Of a DNA stretch of 64,000 nt, positions 36,973-60,857 are shown one piece after another. The notes beneath the pieces are model-generated. The model did not search any database, was not told the DNA's origin, and saw only the letters and a program-made list of their open reading frames with translations. The stretch comes from Gemmatimonadota bacterium (GTDB lineage: Bacteria; Gemmatimonadota; Gemmatimonadetes; Longimicrobiales; Gaopeijiaceae): assembly GCA_028875075.1 (NCBI GenBank), contig JAPPGF010000012.1:461-64460 (forward strand). Direction: 5' to 3'. Made by a program: the position numbers and the translations under genes. The first letter of the stretch is position 1; each line of letters begins with the position of its first letter.

Positions 36973-37315
36973 CAGCCGCCGGCCGCGCACTCGAGCACAT
37001 GGAGCCCTCCCGAGGCACCCACGCGGGCGGCCACGCCGGGCGCGGCGAGCGCCGACGACGATCTTCGTCTCGTTGAGCCCCAGATGTTCGTCCGCGTAGC
37101 CGATCGAGAGCCGCCCCGTGCGGAAGTCCGGTTCTTCAATCACGCGACGGTGCCATGACGCGGTCGCGTCCAGCCCAGCCACGACCAAGCTCCAGGCGCT
37201 CCCAGGCCGACAACTTACCGCGAGCGTGCTGTGCGGCGAGGCGCTCTTCACCGCCCCCTAACTCGGACCGGTGCCGCAGCTCCTGGAACCGTTCAAACCT
37301 GTCGCGCGTGCTCAC
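36973..37315 (-). pseudogene. deletion-fused remnant of acyl-CoA carboxylase carboxyltransferase and biotin carboxylase
   Basis: From the GTG at 37315 the frame reads STRDRFERFQELRHRSELGG then GEERLAAQHARGKLSAWERLEL. This is the exact N-terminal pattern of a propionyl/acetyl-CoA carboxylase beta subunit. After about 43 codons the similarity stops, and in another frame the C-terminal end of a biotin carboxylase begins: LVVAGLDATASWHRRVIEEPDFRTGRLSIGYADEHLGL. A further frame change leads to LAAPGVAARVGASGG and a TGA overlapping the carrier-protein ATG. The simplest reading is an operon CT-BC-BCCP in which most of CT and BC was deleted near 37190, with later indels. Length missing is more than 2 kb. 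Confidence 0.82.
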
Positions 37316-39240
37316 CGCAGGCGGGGGGCCGCGAAGCCTGCGGGTGCAGCGACCCCTGGACAGAGCACCATGACGGGCGTTCCCTCGATCGCGACCGGCG
37401 GCCTCTCCCCCGTGGAGTCCGGTGGCGGGCGGCGATCGATCAGCACGGGTTGCTCACCAACATCCATGGGAAGGAGGCGACCGCCCTGGATGCAGACGAC
37501 GCGGTGCTCCCGCACGACCCGCCCCTCGGCCACGCCGAGCTCGCCCGTCGCCCCGGCGAACAAGTCCATACTCTCGAGCGCATCGGCAAGGGCTGCAGGG
37601 GTGCGGGCTCCGCCCGCCAGCGCATTCAGGACGAGGGCGGCCGCGTCGAAGCCGACCGCCGGCACCGGACTTCGAAGCGTCCGCCTGAACAACGCCTCGT
37701 AGGCCGTGACCAGCGCGGCCTCGCCCGCAGTGCTCCCCTCGCTCCCATTGGGAACGACTGCCACCACGCCGTTGGTGTGCCGCTCGGCCACCACGTCGAG
37801 CACCTCCGGTCGTGTCCAGCCGTCCGTACCCAATACGCGGATGTCCAGCGTATCCAGACCGAAGAAGGTGATCTGAGGAGCCACGGTCTCGATGTCTTCG
37901 GGCGGCAACGGCAACACAACGGCGTCAGGGCGCAGGTTCTCCACGTTCCGCATCTGCGTCTCAAAGAAGGTGGCTCCCCGCTCGTAGAAGAAGCGTGCGA
38001 GCACGGTGCCACCGGAGTTCCTCAGCGCCTCCTCGAAAGCCAGTGCCTCGGCCTCGGCTTCGCCGCCCCGCGGGTGGACGATCACCGTTCGCCGCAGCCC
38101 CGTGTCGGCGGCCCAAAGCGCGAGTGTCCGGGCCGCCTCCGGATCGAAGCCGCCGAGCGTGTAGACGTTCTGTGAGCGCGGTGCCTCCGGCGCCGTCGGC
38201 GAGACCAGTGGCAGGGGGGTCGTTCGGGCACGCGCTGCGGCGAAGAGCTCGGTCGCATCAAGCGGACCCACGACGGCCACCGCCCCCGCCTCTTCGAGCG
38301 CGCGCATGCCGGCGGCAGCACCCTCCGGTGTGGCGTGGTCGTCCTCGACCACGATCTCCAAACCGCTCGCGATCGGGATCGCCTCGGCCGCGGCGCGTAT
38401 GCCCTCCTCGACCAGCTGGGCGAACCGGGTGAGCGACGGCGGGCCCGTGCGCGTGAGCAGAACTCCGAGCACCGTTACGGGTCCCGTGATCCCGAGGGAG
38501 GCCTCGATGCCGTCGTCGAGGACGACGCGGCTGACCCGGGCGTCGCTCTCCACCGCCCCCGCCTGCAGGGCAGCCTCAGCGCTACGACGGGCAGCCGTAC
38601 GCTCGCCTTCGTTGTAGAGCGCGCGCGCTTGCGCAGCGAGCAGCGCAGCCGCGAACGGATGACGGCGCGCGAGCCCTTCCTGCCGGGCAATGATCTCCTC
38701 GGAGTCGAGATCTCTCGCGGCCGCGCGTACGAGCCCGGTCGCCGAATCCGCAATTGCCGAAGGTACGTCGGGCGCAAGTGCTGTCAAACGATCGAGGGCG
38801 CCACCCACATCCCCCTGCCGGATCCGCGCATCGCCCTGGAGGAGGCGCAGCTGGGGCACACGAGGGTCGTTCTCGGGCACGAGCCGAATCCAGCGCTGGG
38901 CGTGGAGGTCCGCTTCCAGCCAGCTTCCTTGAGCGTAGGCCACGTCGGCCAGCAGCCGAAGCGCGCGTCCGGCCACGCGAGCCCCCGGATAGCGCTCGAC
39001 GATCTCCTCGCTCGCCGCACGTGCCGCTTCGAAGTCGTCGAGCGCGTAGGCCCGGCGAGCGTCCTCGAAGAGCTCGACTGCGACGGTCTCCTCGGAGCGC
39101 GACAGCCGCTCGTTGGAGAGCACCGGATCCGGCGGCAGGGCACCCCCACCACTTGCGCTGCCGACCACTGTACACCCCCACGGCGCCAGCAGCACAAGGA
39201 GACGGTGCAAGACCCTTGGGCCGGGGCGGGCTGAGTTCAT
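37312..39240 (-). CDS. periplasmic-binding-fold lipoprotein with N-terminal TPR repeats (LpoA / penicillin-binding protein activator-like)
   Basis: I use the ATG at 39240, which gives a signal peptide and a probable lipobox ending WGC; the 48-residue longer ORF start is rejected. The 642-residue protein has TPR-like helices (about residues 55-260: ALDDFEAARAASEEIVERYPGARVAGRALRLLADVAYAQG). A type I periplasmic-binding domain of the LivK kind follows (VTVLGVLLTRTGP..., AVAVVGPLDATELFAAA, PLPLVSPTAPEA, VYTLGGFDPEAARTLALWAAD). This architecture matches LpoA, a partner of class A penicillin-binding proteins. A transport-binding protein is the alternative. Its TGA overlaps the GTG of the carboxylase remnant. 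Confidence 0.8.
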   Translation of the reverse strand: MNSARPGPRVLHRLLVLLAPWGCTVVGSASGGGALPPDPVLSNERLSRSEETVAVELFEDARRAYALDDFEAARAASEEIVERYPGARVAGRALRLLADVAYAQGSWLEADLHAQRWIRLVPENDPRVPQLRLLQGDARIRQGDVGGALDRLTALAPDVPSAIADSATGLVRAAARDLDSEEIIARQEGLARRHPFAAALLAAQARALYNEGERTAARRSAEAALQAGAVESDARVSRVVLDDGIEASLGITGPVTVLGVLLTRTGPPSLTRFAQLVEEGIRAAAEAIPIASGLEIVVEDDHATPEGAAAGMRALEEAGAVAVVGPLDATELFAAARARTTPLPLVSPTAPEAPRSQNVYTLGGFDPEAARTLALWAADTGLRRTVIVHPRGGEAEAEALAFEEALRNSGGTVLARFFYERGATFFETQMRNVENLRPDAVVLPLPPEDIETVAPQITFFGLDTLDIRVLGTDGWTRPEVLDVVAERHTNGVVAVVPNGSEGSTAGEAALVTAYEALFRRTLRSPVPAVGFDAAALVLNALAGGARTPAALADALESMDLFAGATGELGVAEGRVVREHRVVCIQGGRLLPMDVGEQPVLIDRRPPPDSTGERPPVAIEGTPVMVLCPGVAAPAGFAAPRLR

Positions 39241-39289
39241 CCCCGCGTCCCGGCGTTGGCTATCGTCGAACTGGCGATGGCGTGCGCGG

Positions 39290-41230
39290 TCAGCTCTGCG
39301 GGGATTCTTCCCCCTTTGCCGCTTCGGAAGTGCCCTGTTCCACGGTCGCCTCCGTCTCGGACGGAGCCTCTCCCTCATCGGCATCTACGGAGGTCGTCGC
39401 TTCCGCCGGGCGTTCGCCCTCCGCCACCGCGGGCGCGTCTGCGGCGGCGGACTGCGGCGCGGGCGGCCTGCGCTCGGGCTTCGTCAGCACCTCGAGCACA
39501 ATACGGCGGTTGGTCGCATCCGACTCGACCACGCGAAGGTCGAGCGGATCTCCGGCGTGGTAGTACTCCTCAAGGCGATCGGCGTCCTCGACGCCAGAAT
39601 GCGACGCGGGTATGAAGCCCTCTATGTCGTCTCCTAGGTCCACTACCACACCTCGGTCCTGCACGCGCACCACGTTGCCCTCGCACTCGATGCCCGGCAT
39701 GAGCCGCTCGGAAATCTGCGGCCATGGGTCCTCGTGCAACTGCTTCATGCCCAGGCTGATGCGCTTGTGCTCGGCGTCCACGTCGAGCACTACGACGCGC
39801 ATCGGCTCGCCCTTCTGTATCACCTCCGAAGGATGCTCTATACGGCGTGTCCAGCTCATGTCGGAGACGTGCACTAGGCCGTCGATGCCGGGCTCGATCT
39901 CCACGAAGGCGCCAAAAGACGTGAGGTTTCGCACGACGCCGTCCAAGACCGTACTGGTCGGATACTTGACCGGCAGCGCGAGCCACGGATCCTCCTCGAC
40001 CTGCTTCATCCCGAGCGAGATCTTCTCCTCGTTTGGATCCACCTTGAGCACGACCGCCTCGACCTCGTCGCCGATCGCGACGAGCTTGGACGGATGGCGG
40101 ACATTGCGGGTCCAGCTCATCTCGGAGATGTGAACCAGTCCTTCGACGCCCTTCTCGAGCTCCACGAAGGCGCCGTAGTTGGTGATCGAGACAACCCTGC
40201 CCCGGACACGCGACCCGATCGGATACTTCTTGTCGATCTCCCTCCACGGATAGGGGAGCAGCTGCTTGAGCCCGAGGCTGATGCGCTCCCGGTTCCAGTC
40301 GATGTCCAACACCTTGATGTCGATGGCCGCTCCGATGTGCACCACTTCGGTAGGATGACCGACGCGGCCCCAAGACATGTCGGTGATGTGAAGGAGACCG
40401 TCGAGCCCACCGAGGTCGATGAAGGCACCGAAATCCGTGATGTTCTTTACGACGCCCTCGCGCACCTGGCCGACAAGCAACTCCTTCACAAGAGTTTCGC
40501 GCTTCCTTGCGCGCTCCGCCTCCAAGATCACGCGGCGCGAGACCACGATGTTTCGGCGCCGCTTGTTGAGCTTGATGATCTTGAATTTGTAGGTATCGCC
40601 GATCAGGTCCTCGATGTTGGGAACCCTTCTCAGCGCGATCTGCGAGCCCGGAAGAAACGCGTCCACACCCATCAGGTCCACGGTCACGCCGCCCTTGATC
40701 TTGTGTACCAGCGTGCCCTTGACCGGCTTGTCGGCCTCGTAGGCGTCCTTGATCTTCTCCCATACGCGCAGGAAATCGGCTTTCTTCTTCGACAGTACGA
40801 CTACGCCCTCGTCGTCCTCCAAGCTCTCCAGCAGAACCTCGACCTCCCCGTCGGCCGAGGGCGGGTCCTTGAATTCGTCGAGGGGAACTGATCCTTCGCT
40901 CTTGAAGCCGAACTCTAGGATCACCGCGTTCTCGGTGACCCGAAGCACTTTGGCTTTGACGATCTCTCCCTCACGTATGTCCTGCAGGTCTTCGGCGTAG
41001 TCGCCCAGAAGCTTCGCGAACTCGTCGCGGGACATGTCGAGCGGCTCTTCCCCGTAGGGGTCCATTAGCAACTCGGGGGAGACGCGCTTGTTCGGCTGGC
41101 CCGCCGGGCTGCCGTCCACATCGTCGTCGGGAACGTCGGTCAACACTTCACCGGTCAGGGCGTCGACGGCGACGCCGGACTCTTCGTCAGATTCGGGCGA
41201 GGTAGGGAACGTCGGATCAGTGGGGGTCAT
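39290..41230 (-). CDS. rpsA: 30S ribosomal protein S1
   Basis: The 646-residue protein has an acidic N-terminus and six S1/OB repeats. Typical strings are FGFKSEGSVPLDEF, KGGVTVDLMGVDAFLPGSQI, NITDFGAFIDLGGLDGLLHITDMSW, NYGAFVELEKGVEGLVHISEMSW and LTSFGAFVEIEPGIDGLVHVSDMSW. A long acidic tail ends it. S1 unwinds and holds mRNA on the 30S subunit. It follows cmk on the same strand, which is the classical order tyrA-aroA-cmk-rpsA. Confidence 0.96.
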   Translation of the reverse strand: MTPTDPTFPTSPESDEESGVAVDALTGEVLTDVPDDDVDGSPAGQPNKRVSPELLMDPYGEEPLDMSRDEFAKLLGDYAEDLQDIREGEIVKAKVLRVTENAVILEFGFKSEGSVPLDEFKDPPSADGEVEVLLESLEDDEGVVVLSKKKADFLRVWEKIKDAYEADKPVKGTLVHKIKGGVTVDLMGVDAFLPGSQIALRRVPNIEDLIGDTYKFKIIKLNKRRRNIVVSRRVILEAERARKRETLVKELLVGQVREGVVKNITDFGAFIDLGGLDGLLHITDMSWGRVGHPTEVVHIGAAIDIKVLDIDWNRERISLGLKQLLPYPWREIDKKYPIGSRVRGRVVSITNYGAFVELEKGVEGLVHISEMSWTRNVRHPSKLVAIGDEVEAVVLKVDPNEEKISLGMKQVEEDPWLALPVKYPTSTVLDGVVRNLTSFGAFVEIEPGIDGLVHVSDMSWTRRIEHPSEVIQKGEPMRVVVLDVDAEHKRISLGMKQLHEDPWPQISERLMPGIECEGNVVRVQDRGVVVDLGDDIEGFIPASHSGVEDADRLEEYYHAGDPLDLRVVESDATNRRIVLEVLTKPERRPPAPQSAAADAPAVAEGERPAEATTSVDADEGEAPSETEATVEQGTSEAAKGEESPQS

Positions 41231-55664: not shown

Positions 55665-56450
55665 TTAGGGCTCTCCGGAGGAAGTCACTGGTTTCGACGC
55701 GCTGAATGCGGTGAGCGGGGCATGGATCAGAAAGTCGTCCCAGTAGGGATCGTCCCGCTCCGTGGGCTCAAGCGCAGCGTCGACCCAGCGGAAGTCATCG
55801 AAGCCGGCAGCGCGCGCGGCGGCCTCGTACGTGGCCGGTGCAAGGTAGAAGTTCTCAAACTCGAACGCCTGACCGCTATGGTTGGTTATTCTATACTGGA
55901 TGACATCGCCTTCGCAGGGTGGATATCGGCAGGTCCTATCGAGTCCGTACTTGGCCAGTGACACACCTGGCCGAGGCGGGTTGCGGACGTTGTCATTGAA
56001 GCCGACGAATCGCCCGCCCGGCCTTAGCGCGCGGAAGCAGGTTTGGCAGAAGCGGTCCAACGCCTCCCGGGTGCGGGCATAGTTGAACAGATAGACAGCC
56101 GTCACGATGTCAAACGGAGCATCTGGCACGTATGTCGCTGCATCCTCTTGGATGTAGCGACAGCCTAGTGGGTCCGCACGTTCCTCTGCTTCGGCTAGTG
56201 CGATCATCTCCCGCGAGATGTCGACCCCGGTGACCTCCGCCGCGCCTGTCCGCTTGAATTGGCGCGTATAGACTCCTTCGCCGCACGCCAAGTCCAGCAC
56301 CGACCGTCCTCGCAGGTCACCCAACACCTTGAACAAGGTGTAGCGTTCGATGTAGTGCCGGAAGAGGAGCCATTTGGACTCCCGGTAGTGCTCGGCGATA
56401 TCGTCGTAGGCATGCTCTTTGGTCACGAAACGCTTCCCTGGCCGAGGCAC
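55665..56450 (-). CDS. class I SAM-dependent methyltransferase
   Basis: The 261-residue protein has a Rossmann-type methyltransferase core: VLDLACGEGVYTRQFKRTGAAEVTGVDIS (motif I and the acidic end of strand 2), FDIVTAVYLFNYA (motif II) and FRALRPGGRFVGFND (motif III). The substrate is unknown. A GTG at 56426 (VTKEHAYDDIAEHY) is an alternative start. It is isolated, flanked by a degraded region on its 5' side, and its codon use seems a little less GC-biased than its neighbours. Confidence 0.85.
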   Translation of the reverse strand: MPRPGKRFVTKEHAYDDIAEHYRESKWLLFRHYIERYTLFKVLGDLRGRSVLDLACGEGVYTRQFKRTGAAEVTGVDISREMIALAEAEERADPLGCRYIQEDAATYVPDAPFDIVTAVYLFNYARTREALDRFCQTCFRALRPGGRFVGFNDNVRNPPRPGVSLAKYGLDRTCRYPPCEGDVIQYRITNHSGQAFEFENFYLAPATYEAAARAAGFDDFRWVDAALEPTERDDPYWDDFLIHAPLTAFSASKPVTSSGEP

Positions 56451-57031
56451 CGGGCCATCGGGCCCACCGTACTCGGTTGAAGTCTCACCATGTCCGTGCC
56501 GCCAGTCGATCAGTACGTGGCCTTGGTTACTGAGTCAACGCCGACCCAGAGCTTCCTCGAGGCTCGCCGCTTGCTCCTGAGCATCGGGTACCGAGGGGCA
56601 TTGCCAAGTCCGGCTGCATCAGACACCGGACGTAAGTCGAACTCGACCTTACCCCCGTAGGCGCCGTGCCCGGGCAGGAGCGCGGGGCGGTCGGCCGAAC
56701 ACGCGGCCCCCGAGATGGAGTGGCTTGGCAAGCGCTCCTCGGGAAGATCTTGCGACTGTGTCTTGTGTTCGCCCCAGTTGGCTGTAGTTGGTTCGGAGTG
56801 CGCCCACTTTGACTCCCGTGGTTTGGCTGCTACGAACTTCCGCGTACGCACGTCCCGCTGCCTGCAAGTGCGATTACGAGAGAAGGCCGATAGGATGTTG
56901 TCGGGAACTCATCGCATCCGGACCTACCATCTACGAAGACGTACTCGCCGGGGCGACGGCTCCCCGCTTCTCGCTCGGACGGTCTCGTTTCGCCGCTTCG
57001 ATCCTCGAGCCCGTAGATCAGACAGCTTGCC
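56451..57031. other. degraded or noncoding region upstream of the broken binding-protein gene
   Basis: Several overlapping ORFs exist, none with family features. A short plus-strand frame near 56503 (PVDQYVALVTESTPTQSFLEARRLL) looks protein-like for about 50 codons before a stop, but I cannot assign it. The stretch is probably decayed sequence. Confidence 0.35.
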
Positions 57032-57616
57032 GTGAGAGGACTCACCTCGCCTGCGCTTCGGCCATCGTGTTCATTGCTTGCGGAGACCAGACGACGCCCT
57101 CCTCTGTTGCTGGCAGCGGTGCTGCCTCCGTGAAGTTCGGTTTTCTCGTTTCGGGCGACCGGCTCACTTACTGGAATGCCGCCAGGATCGCCGTAGATGA
57201 AGTCAACAGGCGCGGGGGCCTGTCGGGCCGCTCCGTCGAATTGGTCGCACAAGTGGAACTTGAGGATGCGGAGGCGGCCGTGCGGGCCGCCGAGACCATG
57301 ATCCTAACGGATCAAGTCTCCGCCCTCATTGGTCCCGATCGCCGAGCGCTCGCGCGTTCGTCGACGCGTGTAAGGCACAGTACGGGACGACCCCACCGGG
57401 GTCGACGCGGCAAGCTACCATGCAGTCCGGTTGTTCCTGGAGGCCGCAGAGCGAGCCGGCGGTCTCGACGCGGACGCTGTCAGGCGGCAGCTCTGAGCCA
57501 CCGAGCAGTACGCCGGAGCCACGCGCATCGCCCGCTACGACGGAGCTTGGCACTCGACCAAGAGCATGCCCACCGAGAACGGTACGACGAAATTCTACCG
57601 GCAGGTCGATCCATAG
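57032..57616 (+). pseudogene. decayed periplasmic substrate-binding protein (branched-chain amino acid type)
   Basis: The N-terminal part is clear: a lipoprotein-like VFIACGDQT, then VKFGFLVSGDRLTYWNAARI and DEVNRRGGLSGRSVELVAQV, followed by DQVSALIGPDRR, as in LivK-type proteins. After about 100 codons the sequence jumps, in another frame, to the C-terminal lobe: SARAFVDACKAQYGTTPPG, then in a third frame DAASYHAVRLFLEAAERAGGLDADAVRRQL and a TGA. The end YAGATRIARYDG...TKSMP...FYRQVDP follows in the same frame. About 200 middle residues are missing, with at least two frame changes and one nonsense codon. Confidence 0.82.
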
Positions 57617-57729
57617 GCCTCGTATCCCATCTGAGCTACTCGATGCCCGGCTGACACATTCTCGGACCAAGCCCTTCAGGCGCCGTCCGTGCTTGCAGAG
57701 GTGTTCCGCAGGGCCGGCAGCCAGGAGGC

Positions 57730-59484
57730 TTACGCATCAGGCGCCGGCGCCTTCACGCGAATTGTGATGACGTCGGTATCGTGGTACTGCTGGTGCCGGA
57801 TCGAGGACGCGACGTGACGAAGCAGCCGCAGCGAGACTTCCCGTTCCACGCTCGGCGTGTCCATGTCTTCGCTGAGCAACGCGACCCGGTCCTGAAGGTT
57901 CTGCTCGACGTCACTCGAGGCGATGAGCTCAAGGACGGCGCTGCCGTTCTCCCTATGCGCCACAAGCTGCAGACGTCGCGCCTCCCGCGTCTCGTCGCCC
58001 TCGTCGCGCTGGAGCAGGGTCACCAAGGTCTCTTCCACCGCCGTGTCCAGGCGGTTGCGCATGATCCGACCCCACCCATGACGTGATGCGAAGTCACTTA
58101 GGAACGTCTGGATCTCAGGTAGAGCCGATAGATGGCACTGGGTCTCCATCTGCCGCCGCTGCGGCCCGGTCAATTCCACGAACATCGTCATCACGATCGC
58201 CGCCAGGCCGCCTGCCGTCATCCCGTTCTGCAGCAGGCCGCCTACGAAGCCGCCGAAGTACTCAGGGAATATGACGCCGTTCTGGAAACCCACGCCGATC
58301 CAGAATGACACTCCGACTACCAAACCCTTCCGGTAGTCTACGCCGTCCTGCACGACAATCTTCATGCCGATCACGAACAGCATTGCCATGAGAACCGTGA
58401 TGTAGGCCGCCGCGACCGGCCCCGGTATCGCCAGCAGCACAGCGAGTGCCTTCGGCAGGAACGCCATCCCGACGAACACGGCGCCCACCGCCATGCCGAC
58501 TGTACGGGCCCCAACCCCGGTGAGCTCGGTCACCGAAACGCTCGTCGAATAGGTGGTGTTCGGCATGGTGCCGGCCAGGCCCGACAAGAGGTTGCCCATT
58601 CCGTCGGCGGCCAACGCGCCCTGGACGGCGCGGAAGTCGACGGCCTGGGCGCGGCGGTAGGAGACGCGCTGGATCGCAACCGCGTCCCCGATGGTCTCGA
58701 TCGCCCCGACCAGCGTGACGAACGCGAACGCCGGAAGCAGGGCCCAGAACGTCGGCCCGAAGCTCAGGTCCAGACCCGGCCATCCACCTGATGGCACTCC
58801 CAGCCACGATGCCTCGGCTATGAGGTTCGTGTCGTAGATGCCGAAGAGACCGGCCACCACCGATCCGGCCGCCACGCCAGCGACCGGAGCCCACAAGCGG
58901 AGCGTACCTCGGGCTTTGAGGGCGAGACCGGCGATGACCAGAACCGTAGCCAGCGCGGCGAATGCGGCAGCACTCAACGACTCCCCCGGCACATCGGTCA
59001 GCATGTCGAAGATGAGCGGCATCACCGTTACCGGAATCAGCATGATGACGGTGCCCGCTACGCCCGGTGTAAGGATCCGTCGAAAAAGCGAAAGCCTGGA
59101 TGCGAGGCTGAACTGGAAGAACGAGGAGATGACCACCAGAGTGGCCAGCATCGCCGGCCCGCCTTCCGCGATGGCCGTAATACAAACCGCGATGAATGCT
59201 CCGGACGTACCCATCAACAGCACATAGCCGGCGCCGACGCGGCCGAAGCGTGCGGCTTGCGTCAAGGTGCTTACGCCGCTGATCGCCACCGCGGCGAACA
59301 CGGCCCAGGACAGGTAGGACTCGCTCCCGCCCGCCGCTCGAATCACGATCGCAGGAGTCAGTACGATGCCGGCGATGCATAGGACGGCCAGTTGCGCCCC
59401 GAGGCCCAGGGAGAGCAAGGTCGGCGGCTTCTCGTCGGGCTCGTAGCGCACACCGGCGTTCCGGTCGGTGTCCTGGACATCCAT
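57730..59484 (-). CDS. NCS2 (xanthine/uracil) permease fused to a C-terminal HATPase-like domain
   Basis: Residues about 20-440 form an NCS2 nucleobase permease. It has some 13 hydrophobic helices, FVTLVGAIETIGDAVAIQRVS as the conserved helix-8 region, and PNTTYSTSVSVTELTGVGARTVG matching the NCS2 signature. Residues about 445-578 are soluble and follow the RsbW-like histidine-kinase-ATPase pattern. FLSDFASRHGWGRIMRNRLDTAVEETLVTLL matches the first helix and N-box, but Asn of the N-box is replaced and no GxG ATP-lid motif is visible. Strands RRLQLVAHRENGSAVLELIAS and a final VITIRVKA strand follow. The tail is probably a protein-interaction or degenerate ATP module. A STAS gene lies about 680 bases upstream on the same strand. 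Confidence 0.82.
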   Translation of the reverse strand: MDVQDTDRNAGVRYEPDEKPPTLLSLGLGAQLAVLCIAGIVLTPAIVIRAAGGSESYLSWAVFAAVAISGVSTLTQAARFGRVGAGYVLLMGTSGAFIAVCITAIAEGGPAMLATLVVISSFFQFSLASRLSLFRRILTPGVAGTVIMLIPVTVMPLIFDMLTDVPGESLSAAAFAALATVLVIAGLALKARGTLRLWAPVAGVAAGSVVAGLFGIYDTNLIAEASWLGVPSGGWPGLDLSFGPTFWALLPAFAFVTLVGAIETIGDAVAIQRVSYRRAQAVDFRAVQGALAADGMGNLLSGLAGTMPNTTYSTSVSVTELTGVGARTVGMAVGAVFVGMAFLPKALAVLLAIPGPVAAAYITVLMAMLFVIGMKIVVQDGVDYRKGLVVGVSFWIGVGFQNGVIFPEYFGGFVGGLLQNGMTAGGLAAIVMTMFVELTGPQRRQMETQCHLSALPEIQTFLSDFASRHGWGRIMRNRLDTAVEETLVTLLQRDEGDETREARRLQLVAHRENGSAVLELIASSDVEQNLQDRVALLSEDMDTPSVEREVSLRLLRHVASSIRHQQYHDTDVITIRVKAPAPDA

Positions 59485-60166
59485 ATGCGGTACACCTCAC
59501 ACGCAAGTGGGACAGCAGCTAGTCTGCGAAGACCATCCCGTGAGAGCCAAATGTACCCGTCCTGCGCATCGGTGAGCTCGCACCCCGTCGAACGATTGGC
59601 TCAGGGAACGCCGTGACCGTGTGGCCCCCGGCCCAGGCCCGCGAATCGCCCAACCGTAAGGCGGCATGGACTAGACGCTCTCTCGCCCAGGAGAGAGCTG
59701 ATTCCGAGATTCGTTCGAGGCGATGTCCTATCGTGGATGAGGTGGGAAGGACCGTACCGGCTTCCGGCGGACGGCTGGCGAGGACGTCCACGGCGTCGCG
59801 CGCGGCTCTGGAGTCACCCGGTTTGCTCGGGAGAGTCACTTCGCTCCCGGACGGTCGAGTACGTGAAGTCGAATTTGGCGGAACATGCCCGCCCTAGGCC
59901 TCTAGCGCGCTGTTTGCCACGCCGGGCTCAAGCGTCGTCCTCCTGCGAACCGCAGGAGCGTGGCGGAGGGTGTAAGCGCCTCGACCGGTGGCCCTTCCCG
60001 CCATAACAGACGACCCGGCACCGACATGCGGGGGGCGACGCCATTTCGAACGACCTAGGTGCGTGAGGTTCCGAACACAGAACCTGCGATGGTCATCAGC
60101 GTCTTGAGCAGGCATTCACTGTGCGCGCACTCGCCCGCGGGAACCATCCCGCGCGCGCCATCCCCG
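59485..60166. other. 680-base gap between STAS and permease genes, no gene supported
   Basis: The ORFs here are family-free. A very short minus-strand frame at 59886-59836 (RQIRLHVLDRPGAK) resembles the start of an ACT domain but ends after 16 codons. No purine riboswitch was recognised in front of the permease. The gap weakens any claim that STAS and permease are one operon. Confidence 0.45.
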
Positions 60167-60508
60167 TCAGGACGCTACAGCGAGAGCCGCCTCGCGAGAA
60201 TCCTTGATGGGGATGATCTGGCTGAAACCGCTGATCTGAAAGACTTCCTCGATGTGGTCCTTCATGGAACAGAGAACAAGCGTTCCCTGCTGGGCCTTCA
60301 ACGCCTTAGCGGCAAGAAGGAGCACCCGCATGCCCGAGCTGCTGATGAAGTCGAGACGGCCAAAGTCTACGATCATACGCCGTTCTCCGTCGTTTACGTG
60401 CTCCATTACGACGGACTCGAACGAGCCAGCGTTTCCGCTGTCCAATCGTCCAACAGGCGAAAGCACTAGTACTTCGCCGGTTCTCTCCTTGGCGACTTCG
60501 ATCTCCAT
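60167..60508 (-). CDS. STAS-domain anti-sigma factor antagonist
   Basis: The 113-residue protein has the STAS fold: VLVLSPVGRLDSGNAGSFESVV, then VDFGRLDFISSSGMRVLLLAAK with the Ser-Ser-Ser phosphorylation site in a DFISSSGMR loop, and ISGFSQIIPI at the end. Such proteins bind, and are phosphorylated by, RsbW-type kinases. The ATG at 60508 with GGGGG upstream is preferred to the GTG at 60517. No kinase or phosphatase gene is adjacent. The only HATPase-like sequence nearby is the tail of the NCS2 permease downstream. Confidence 0.88.
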   Translation of the reverse strand: MEIEVAKERTGEVLVLSPVGRLDSGNAGSFESVVMEHVNDGERRMIVDFGRLDFISSSGMRVLLLAAKALKAQQGTLVLCSMKDHIEEVFQISGFSQIIPIKDSREAALAVAS

Positions 60509-60857
60509 TAGATCCACCCCCCGCTGCTACGCTCACACAGCCTCGGTCTGAGACAGTGCACCCTCGACAGTCCATTGTTGAATCCTCGCGCAACTTTACT
60601 AGCGGCATAGCCATGGGACAAGGGCCAGACCGACACAGCAGGACGGGAGCCCTAGGCAGGGGTGAGCGTCTCCCGAGGGTCGTCCATCGTCAGCTCCGGG
60701 ATGACTTACACGTGCCGGCCGTGACTTGACTCACGCTCTGGACCTCCAGAACGTCTGGCTGGAGCGTACCGCCAAATGCGCACCGGGACCCGGGGTGAGC
60801 GTCGCCTCGCGAGGAGCCCGGGCCGGGGCGGGCTCCTCGCGCCATCCGCCAGTTGGC
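60509..60857. other. intergenic between STAS and gltX; holds a strong hairpin
   Basis: About 350 bases with no protein features. The gltX transcript would run through it. The main feature is the 13-base inverted repeat at 60808-60841. The STAS promoter should lie nearer 60530-60600 but is not clear. Confidence 0.5.
60808..60841 (-). terminator. strong hairpin after gltX, probable terminator
   Basis: CGCGAGGAGCCCG and CGGGCTCCTCGCG form a perfect 13-base stem around an 8-base loop. It starts 17 bases after the gltX stop. The downstream minus-strand sequence has no U-run, so it may act as a Rho-assisted or RNA-stabilising 3' end. Confidence 0.55.

Follow-up and report, generated by a model that had tools for sequence, protein, structure and literature searches.

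An NCS2-family permease with a degenerate RsbW-like tail, and its possible role as a STAS receptor

The window, as we call the whole 64,000-nucleotide stretch of DNA analysed here, encodes an NCS2-family permease with a C-terminal tail that has the predicted fold of RsbW-type anti-sigma kinases and lacks their ATP motifs. We suggest that the tail descends from RsbW, is dead as a kinase and serves as a receptor for a STAS protein, so that a periplasmic nitrogen-compound signal would gate transport, and we put the probability of this at about 0.5. The observations behind it are the predicted fold, the loss of the ATP motifs, the single origin of the tail as it appears in our tree, the genomic linkage to partner-switch genes and the orthology of the partner-switch modules concerned. 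The features of the window locus are:

57730..59484, minus strand: NCS2-family (PF00860) permease with a C-terminal degenerate RsbW-like tail, 584 aa (open reading frame and Pfam)
57733..58176, minus strand: the tail, about residues 437-584 (~145 residues), of RsbW/SpoIIAB-type GHKL fold without ATP motifs (AlphaFold, PDB fold search, profiles)
58030..58035, minus strand: E484-E485, the kept N-box glutamates; the Asn is replaced, position 489 being Thr (family alignment)
57778..57795, minus strand: HQQYHD, residues 564-569, a family signature (alignment)
60167..60508, minus strand: single-domain STAS protein of the anti-sigma-antagonist type with an intact ISSSG loop (PF01740, E 1.4e-21); alternative GTG start at 60517
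57190..57396, plus strand: broken Peripla_BP_6 fragment inside the ORF 56788-57654, with partner-switch module binding proteins (SBPs) as best match
55665..56426, minus strand: SAM-dependent methyltransferase

With regard to the tail, a Pfam scan of the window tail alone gave no meaningful match. PF13581 (HATPase_c_2) does match 27 of 54 homologous tails, with a best E of 8.3e-7, and the tail of the alphaproteobacterial locus L147 is above Pfam's own cut-off for that family (27.6 vs 27.4 bits). An AlphaFold model of the window tail (pLDDT 78) was compared with the PDB, and the first 19 matches were all RsbW, UsfX/anti-sigma F or SpoIIAB (E 1.7e-6 to 5.6e-4), most of them from complexes with STAS or sigma partners. 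Comparison of the tail profile with a profile of true RsbW proteins gave E 4e-6. A preliminary description of this DNA had recognised an RsbW-type helix and N-box pattern in the extra C-terminal residues and had proposed fold prediction as the check; the model is indeed GHKL-like, and fold and sequence profile agree on the RsbW/SpoIIAB type. By sequence, most PDB hits were designed repeat proteins; an unrelated helical domain is ruled out by the fold and profile results.

The same description saw that the N-box Asn and the ATP-lid glycines were lost, and this extends to the whole family. The Asn is present in none of 102 readable tails, with T, S, F, A or a hydrophobic residue at that position and the glutamates retained, and the G1 Asp (Asp-x-Gly) and lid glycines are also missing across the family. 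The tails have other conserved features: a motif of the H-x-Q/K-Y/F type is found in 104/104, there are 13 invariant positions among 54 tails, and R478, E484-E485, N529, R553-L-L, H564-Q565, H568 and D571 are invariant in 48 full-length rows. The kinase motifs are thus lost in all tails yet the domain is strongly conserved, and selection must be maintaining something other than catalysis.

The transporter part of the window protein (residues 28-400) matches PF00860 with E 1.3e-41, which places it in the NCS2/NAT (SLC23) family, and the closest solved structures by sequence are UapA, UraA and SVCT1. The NAT signature [QEP]-N-x-G, at the substrate site in TM10, is found in none of 84 readable members, which have STSV, SSSV, STSI and similar instead, and the window permease is below the NCBIfam curated cut-offs for both ncs2 and xanthine permease. 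As the signature is replaced and the ncs2 cut-off missed, 'nucleobase permease', the name first given to it, is correct for the family only, and a nucleobase is at most a putative substrate. The genes beside permeases of this family include those for an ammonium transporter, glutamine synthetase, hydantoinase and a luciferase-like monooxygenase, which point to nitrogen compounds as the substrate class. Beside two distant tail permeases (L162, L163) lie genes for a LysR regulator and a hydantoinase, a hint at substrate. The STAS domain that marks SLC26/SulP transporters is absent, the tail being RsbW-like, and a chance ORF or mis-annotated fusion is ruled out by the presence of transporter and tail in one frame in 104/104 long members.

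When 84,980 species genomes were searched with the tail as query, 222 relatives were found, and the best 80 of these were retrieved for study; 104 full-length members were collected. Seven sequences in the genome that the window comes from match the tail profile, and the six examined are all long permease-tail genes. Within its phylum the tail is present in 42 of 298 sampled genomes but only 8 of 119 genera, and a single genome can have as many as 12 copies; the figure for Alphaproteobacteria is 16 of 385 genomes. Spread on plasmids is rejected, as there was no match among 72,556 plasmids. Thirteen sampled tails form one clade in the tree, with support 100/100, and the fusion thus probably arose once. 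The nearest orthologue of the window permease is in an Acidobacteria MAG (L016), with 80% identity, and there too a methyltransferase gene, 60% identical to that in the window, lies beside it (L016 1602-4605; window 55665-59484), which suggests that the two genes moved together between these genomes.

The 80 named relatives, the best of the 222, come from many phyla, and despite this their bin names are almost entirely those of sponge or coral metagenome projects. We tentatively take the prefixes SB066x, RHO, COS, APA, p16x, 277c, CO and Plut to be from such projects, in part by likeness. The jk18x bins are from Ircinia sponges (PMC9531527), and Gemmatimonadota of sponges and of the coral Porites lutea have been described (PMC10581226). 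The transporter family is apparently restricted to the niche of sponge and coral symbionts and horizontally spread; the basal alphaproteobacterial clade of tail permeases may be free-living.

Some relatives have a complete partner-switch module beside the permease, as seen when locus genes were called with an in-house codon model and scanned against Pfam. The plainest example is L147, from an alphaproteobacterium that the tree places in the basal clade, where the genes form one tight operon on a single strand:

L147 2589-3758, operon strand: Peripla_BP_6 binding protein
L147 3755-6274, operon strand: TorS-HAMP-SpoIIE-HATPase_c_2 fusion (sensor, phosphatase and kinase)
L147 6286-6624, operon strand: STAS protein
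L147 6711-8447, operon strand: permease with tail

The fusion protein matches SiaA (2e-37) and TorS (9e-15). Phosphatase, kinase and STAS are also encoded together beside the permease in five Nitrospinota-type loci (L018, L019, L023, L027, L028), which have a response regulator, RR-SpoIIE, RsbW, a Peripla_BP_6 SBP, a HAMP-HisKA-HATPase kinase and STAS, and in L035 (Nitrospirales), with the same parts in another order (RsbW, STAS, RR-SpoIIE, SBP, HK). In three Rhodospirillales loci (L041, L043, L058) a STAS gene lies 0.3-1.6 kb downstream of the permease, and the order after the permease is STAS, GPP34, ammonium transporter, STAS and type III glutamine synthetase (8798-13854 in L041). No sigma factor was found among the annotated module genes.

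The module SBPs are 51-58% identical across three phyla, vs about 20% to control SBPs. Of the 16 alphaproteobacterial genomes with a tail, 7 also have the module SBP, as do 24 of the 369 without one (Fisher p 8e-5), although the genomes are related and the counts are thus not independent events. For most of the modules the RsbW proteins are also closer to the tail: seven match the tail profile with E 3e-7 to 2e-4, vs 0.2 to 4 for five unlinked RsbWs, and by BLASTP a module RsbW matches the window tail with E 1e-4. This suggests that the tail descended from the RsbW kinase of this type of module, although its placement near the module RsbWs is uncertain because the tail branch is long.

The same type of module is not confined to permeases. 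In three of these alphaproteobacterial genomes (G501, G673 and G595; loci L195, L196 and L197 respectively) a related cluster reads AmtB - STAS - RR-SpoIIE - RsbW - Peripla_BP_6 - histidine kinase, so that the module has an ammonium transporter beside it and not the permease, and its STAS may have other targets. We found no published description of this cluster.

In the window the linkage is looser. The preliminary description had drawn attention to an upstream STAS protein with an intact loop, and the gene is there on the same strand, its phospho-acceptor ISSSG retained; it is above the TIGR00377 cut-off and, with a single domain and conserved phospho-Ser loop, is of the RsbV antagonist type. 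It is 682 nt upstream of the permease, so that the pair is not a tight operon, and a search of the gap for remnants of other module genes found none recognisable. The only module parts beside the permease are this STAS gene and the broken SBP fragment on the other side, which matches module binding proteins with E 2e-8 to 3e-5 vs 9e-5 for controls. Two further SpoIIE/RsbW loci are present elsewhere in the genome, and we infer that their products could act in trans. This genome has a second STAS of the window type, with 70% identity, that no permease adjoins (L142 824-1165; G000:C15). The window also encodes, at 37315-39384 on the minus strand, a protein of 689 aa whose C-terminal domain is Peripla_BP_6, an LpoA-like layout.

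It is quite possible, though we lean to the opposite view, that the window STAS is an unrelated neighbour and that the partners of the tail are encoded elsewhere, a local variant that is compatible with our main explanation for the family. This would account for the 682-nt gap and for the L016 permease, which at 80% identity has a different upstream gene and not a STAS gene, and STAS density puts the chance of a STAS gene lying within 8 kb of any one site at about 2.4%, or 0.3% within 1.1 kb. It does not account for the window STAS being closer to permease-linked STAS proteins (34-41% identity) than to stress-type STAS (26-30%), or for the module-type SBP fragment on the permease's other side.

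Whether STAS genes and the fusion occur together in other genomes was the survey that had been proposed, and its outcome is mixed: the association recurs in several lineages unrelated to one another, in one case as a tight operon, but only 8 of the 80 named loci (the best 80 of 222 relatives), from about three lineages, have STAS within 8 kb. The 1.08 Mb of these loci contain twelve STAS genes vs 1.7 expected, again from about three lineages, and a lineage-based P is 0.015-0.06 for a distance of 8 kb and 0.001 for 1.1 kb, with the numbers of independent lineages assumed. Closeness of STAS fails as a general rule in the window's own family, where it is at about chance level. The linkage is thus convincing in those lineages that bear a module, but for the window by itself it is weak, and with STAS neighbours in the minority any action of STAS must as a rule be in trans.

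In the explanation that we prefer, a periplasmic binding protein would sense an external nitrogen compound and signal to a SpoIIE-type phosphatase via a TorS-like sensor kinase; the phosphatase and the true RsbW kinase would together set the phosphorylation state of STAS, and unphosphorylated STAS would dock on the transporter tail and alter transport through gating, assembly or turnover. We infer the STAS binding, its control by phosphorylation, the effect on transport (direction included) and the ligand. Counting against a STAS receptor are the many tail permeases, most of the family, without STAS or module nearby, L016 without an upstream STAS, the modules beside an ammonium transporter, and the low score (0.09) of L147's fused RsbW domain against the tail profile. 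An extension, which we offer tentatively and think somewhat unlikely as it stands, is that in sponge and coral symbionts a periplasmic nitrogen-compound sensor sets how far STAS proteins are phosphorylated, and that these dock on the kinase-dead tails of many transporters together, a single switch thus tuning as many as 12 uptake systems in a cell post-translationally.

Of less probability again, but still to be taken seriously, is a tail that functions without STAS, as an allosteric ligand sensor or dimer-stabilising domain, the STAS neighbours being partly due to chance. The former ATP pocket would have been rebuilt, with its kept Glu, Asn, His, Gln and Asp, to hold a different ligand, for example a nucleobase, a nucleotide or a nitrogen metabolite, and transport would be gated by it. 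The conserved polar residues E485, N529, H564, Q565, H568 and D571 fit with this, as do the lack of a STAS neighbour in most family members and the distant members that adjoin LysR and hydantoinase genes only. However it leaves unexplained the L147 operon, the recurrence of modules in several lineages and the greater likeness of the tail to module RsbWs.

Signalling in the outward direction we consider distinctly unlikely. Here transport or substrate binding would alter the STAS held by the tail, so that true RsbW is freed or occupied and a sigma factor or other target changes. The components are those of our main explanation, RsbW and target do compete for STAS in canonical partner switching, and the genome has its two further SpoIIE/RsbW loci, but the modules already hold a periplasmic sensor, kinase and phosphatase and have no linked sigma factor. 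For this reason, of the two options in the preliminary description, a permease regulated by STAS binding fits better than one that senses uptake and signals outward. That the tail is a still-active kinase or ATPase can be dismissed almost completely, as its N-box glutamates are retained but the N-box Asn, G1 Asp and lid glycines are all missing across the family.

The known outputs of partner switching are sigma factors and a diguanylate cyclase, and we found no paper in the open literature on an NCS2 permease under STAS/SpoIIE control. If our explanation is correct, a membrane transporter that carries the dead-kinase half of the switch would be a new output, giving direct and fast coupling of uptake to an external signal. 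The family is large, is found in many phyla and seems to be concentrated in sponge and coral symbionts, where it may bear on symbiont use of host nitrogen compounds. The RsbV-RsbW, SpoIIAA-SpoIIAB and RsfB-UsfX systems share with it the fold of the tail, a STAS protein with intact serine loop and, in linked modules, true RsbW and SpoIIE phosphatase; they differ in that here one RsbW-like copy forms part of a transporter and no longer has an ATP site, and the modules have no sigma factor. In TorT-TorS a periplasmic binding protein works with the TorS sensor, and L147 has a binding protein and TorS-like sensor, but its output is a SpoIIE phosphatase/RsbW/STAS switch. Transporter-kinases of the CbrA type also join a transport domain to a GHKL-superfamily domain, but are two-component histidine kinases. 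The same is true of the ammonium sensor Ks-Amt5 (PMC5764959), whereas the tail discussed here is RsbW-type and kinase-dead. In SiaABCD of Pseudomonas aeruginosa SiaC activates a diguanylate cyclase (PMC7647112, PMC8457831). This system too has a SpoIIE phosphatase in the membrane (SiaA, which the L147 fusion resembles), a kinase, a phosphorylatable switch protein and an output other than a sigma factor; our candidate output differs in being a transporter that bears a pseudo-RsbW tail, and a periplasmic binding protein belongs to the module. SLC26/SulP proteins (PMC8256260, PMC6497670) are related 7+7 transporters, also with a C-terminal cytoplasmic regulatory domain from the STAS/anti-sigma world. 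The arrangement is a mirror image, as SLC26 bears the STAS half whereas here an SLC23-type transporter bears the RsbW half and STAS is separate, and as the role of the SLC26 STAS domain is unsettled, the permeases described here could make that question testable.
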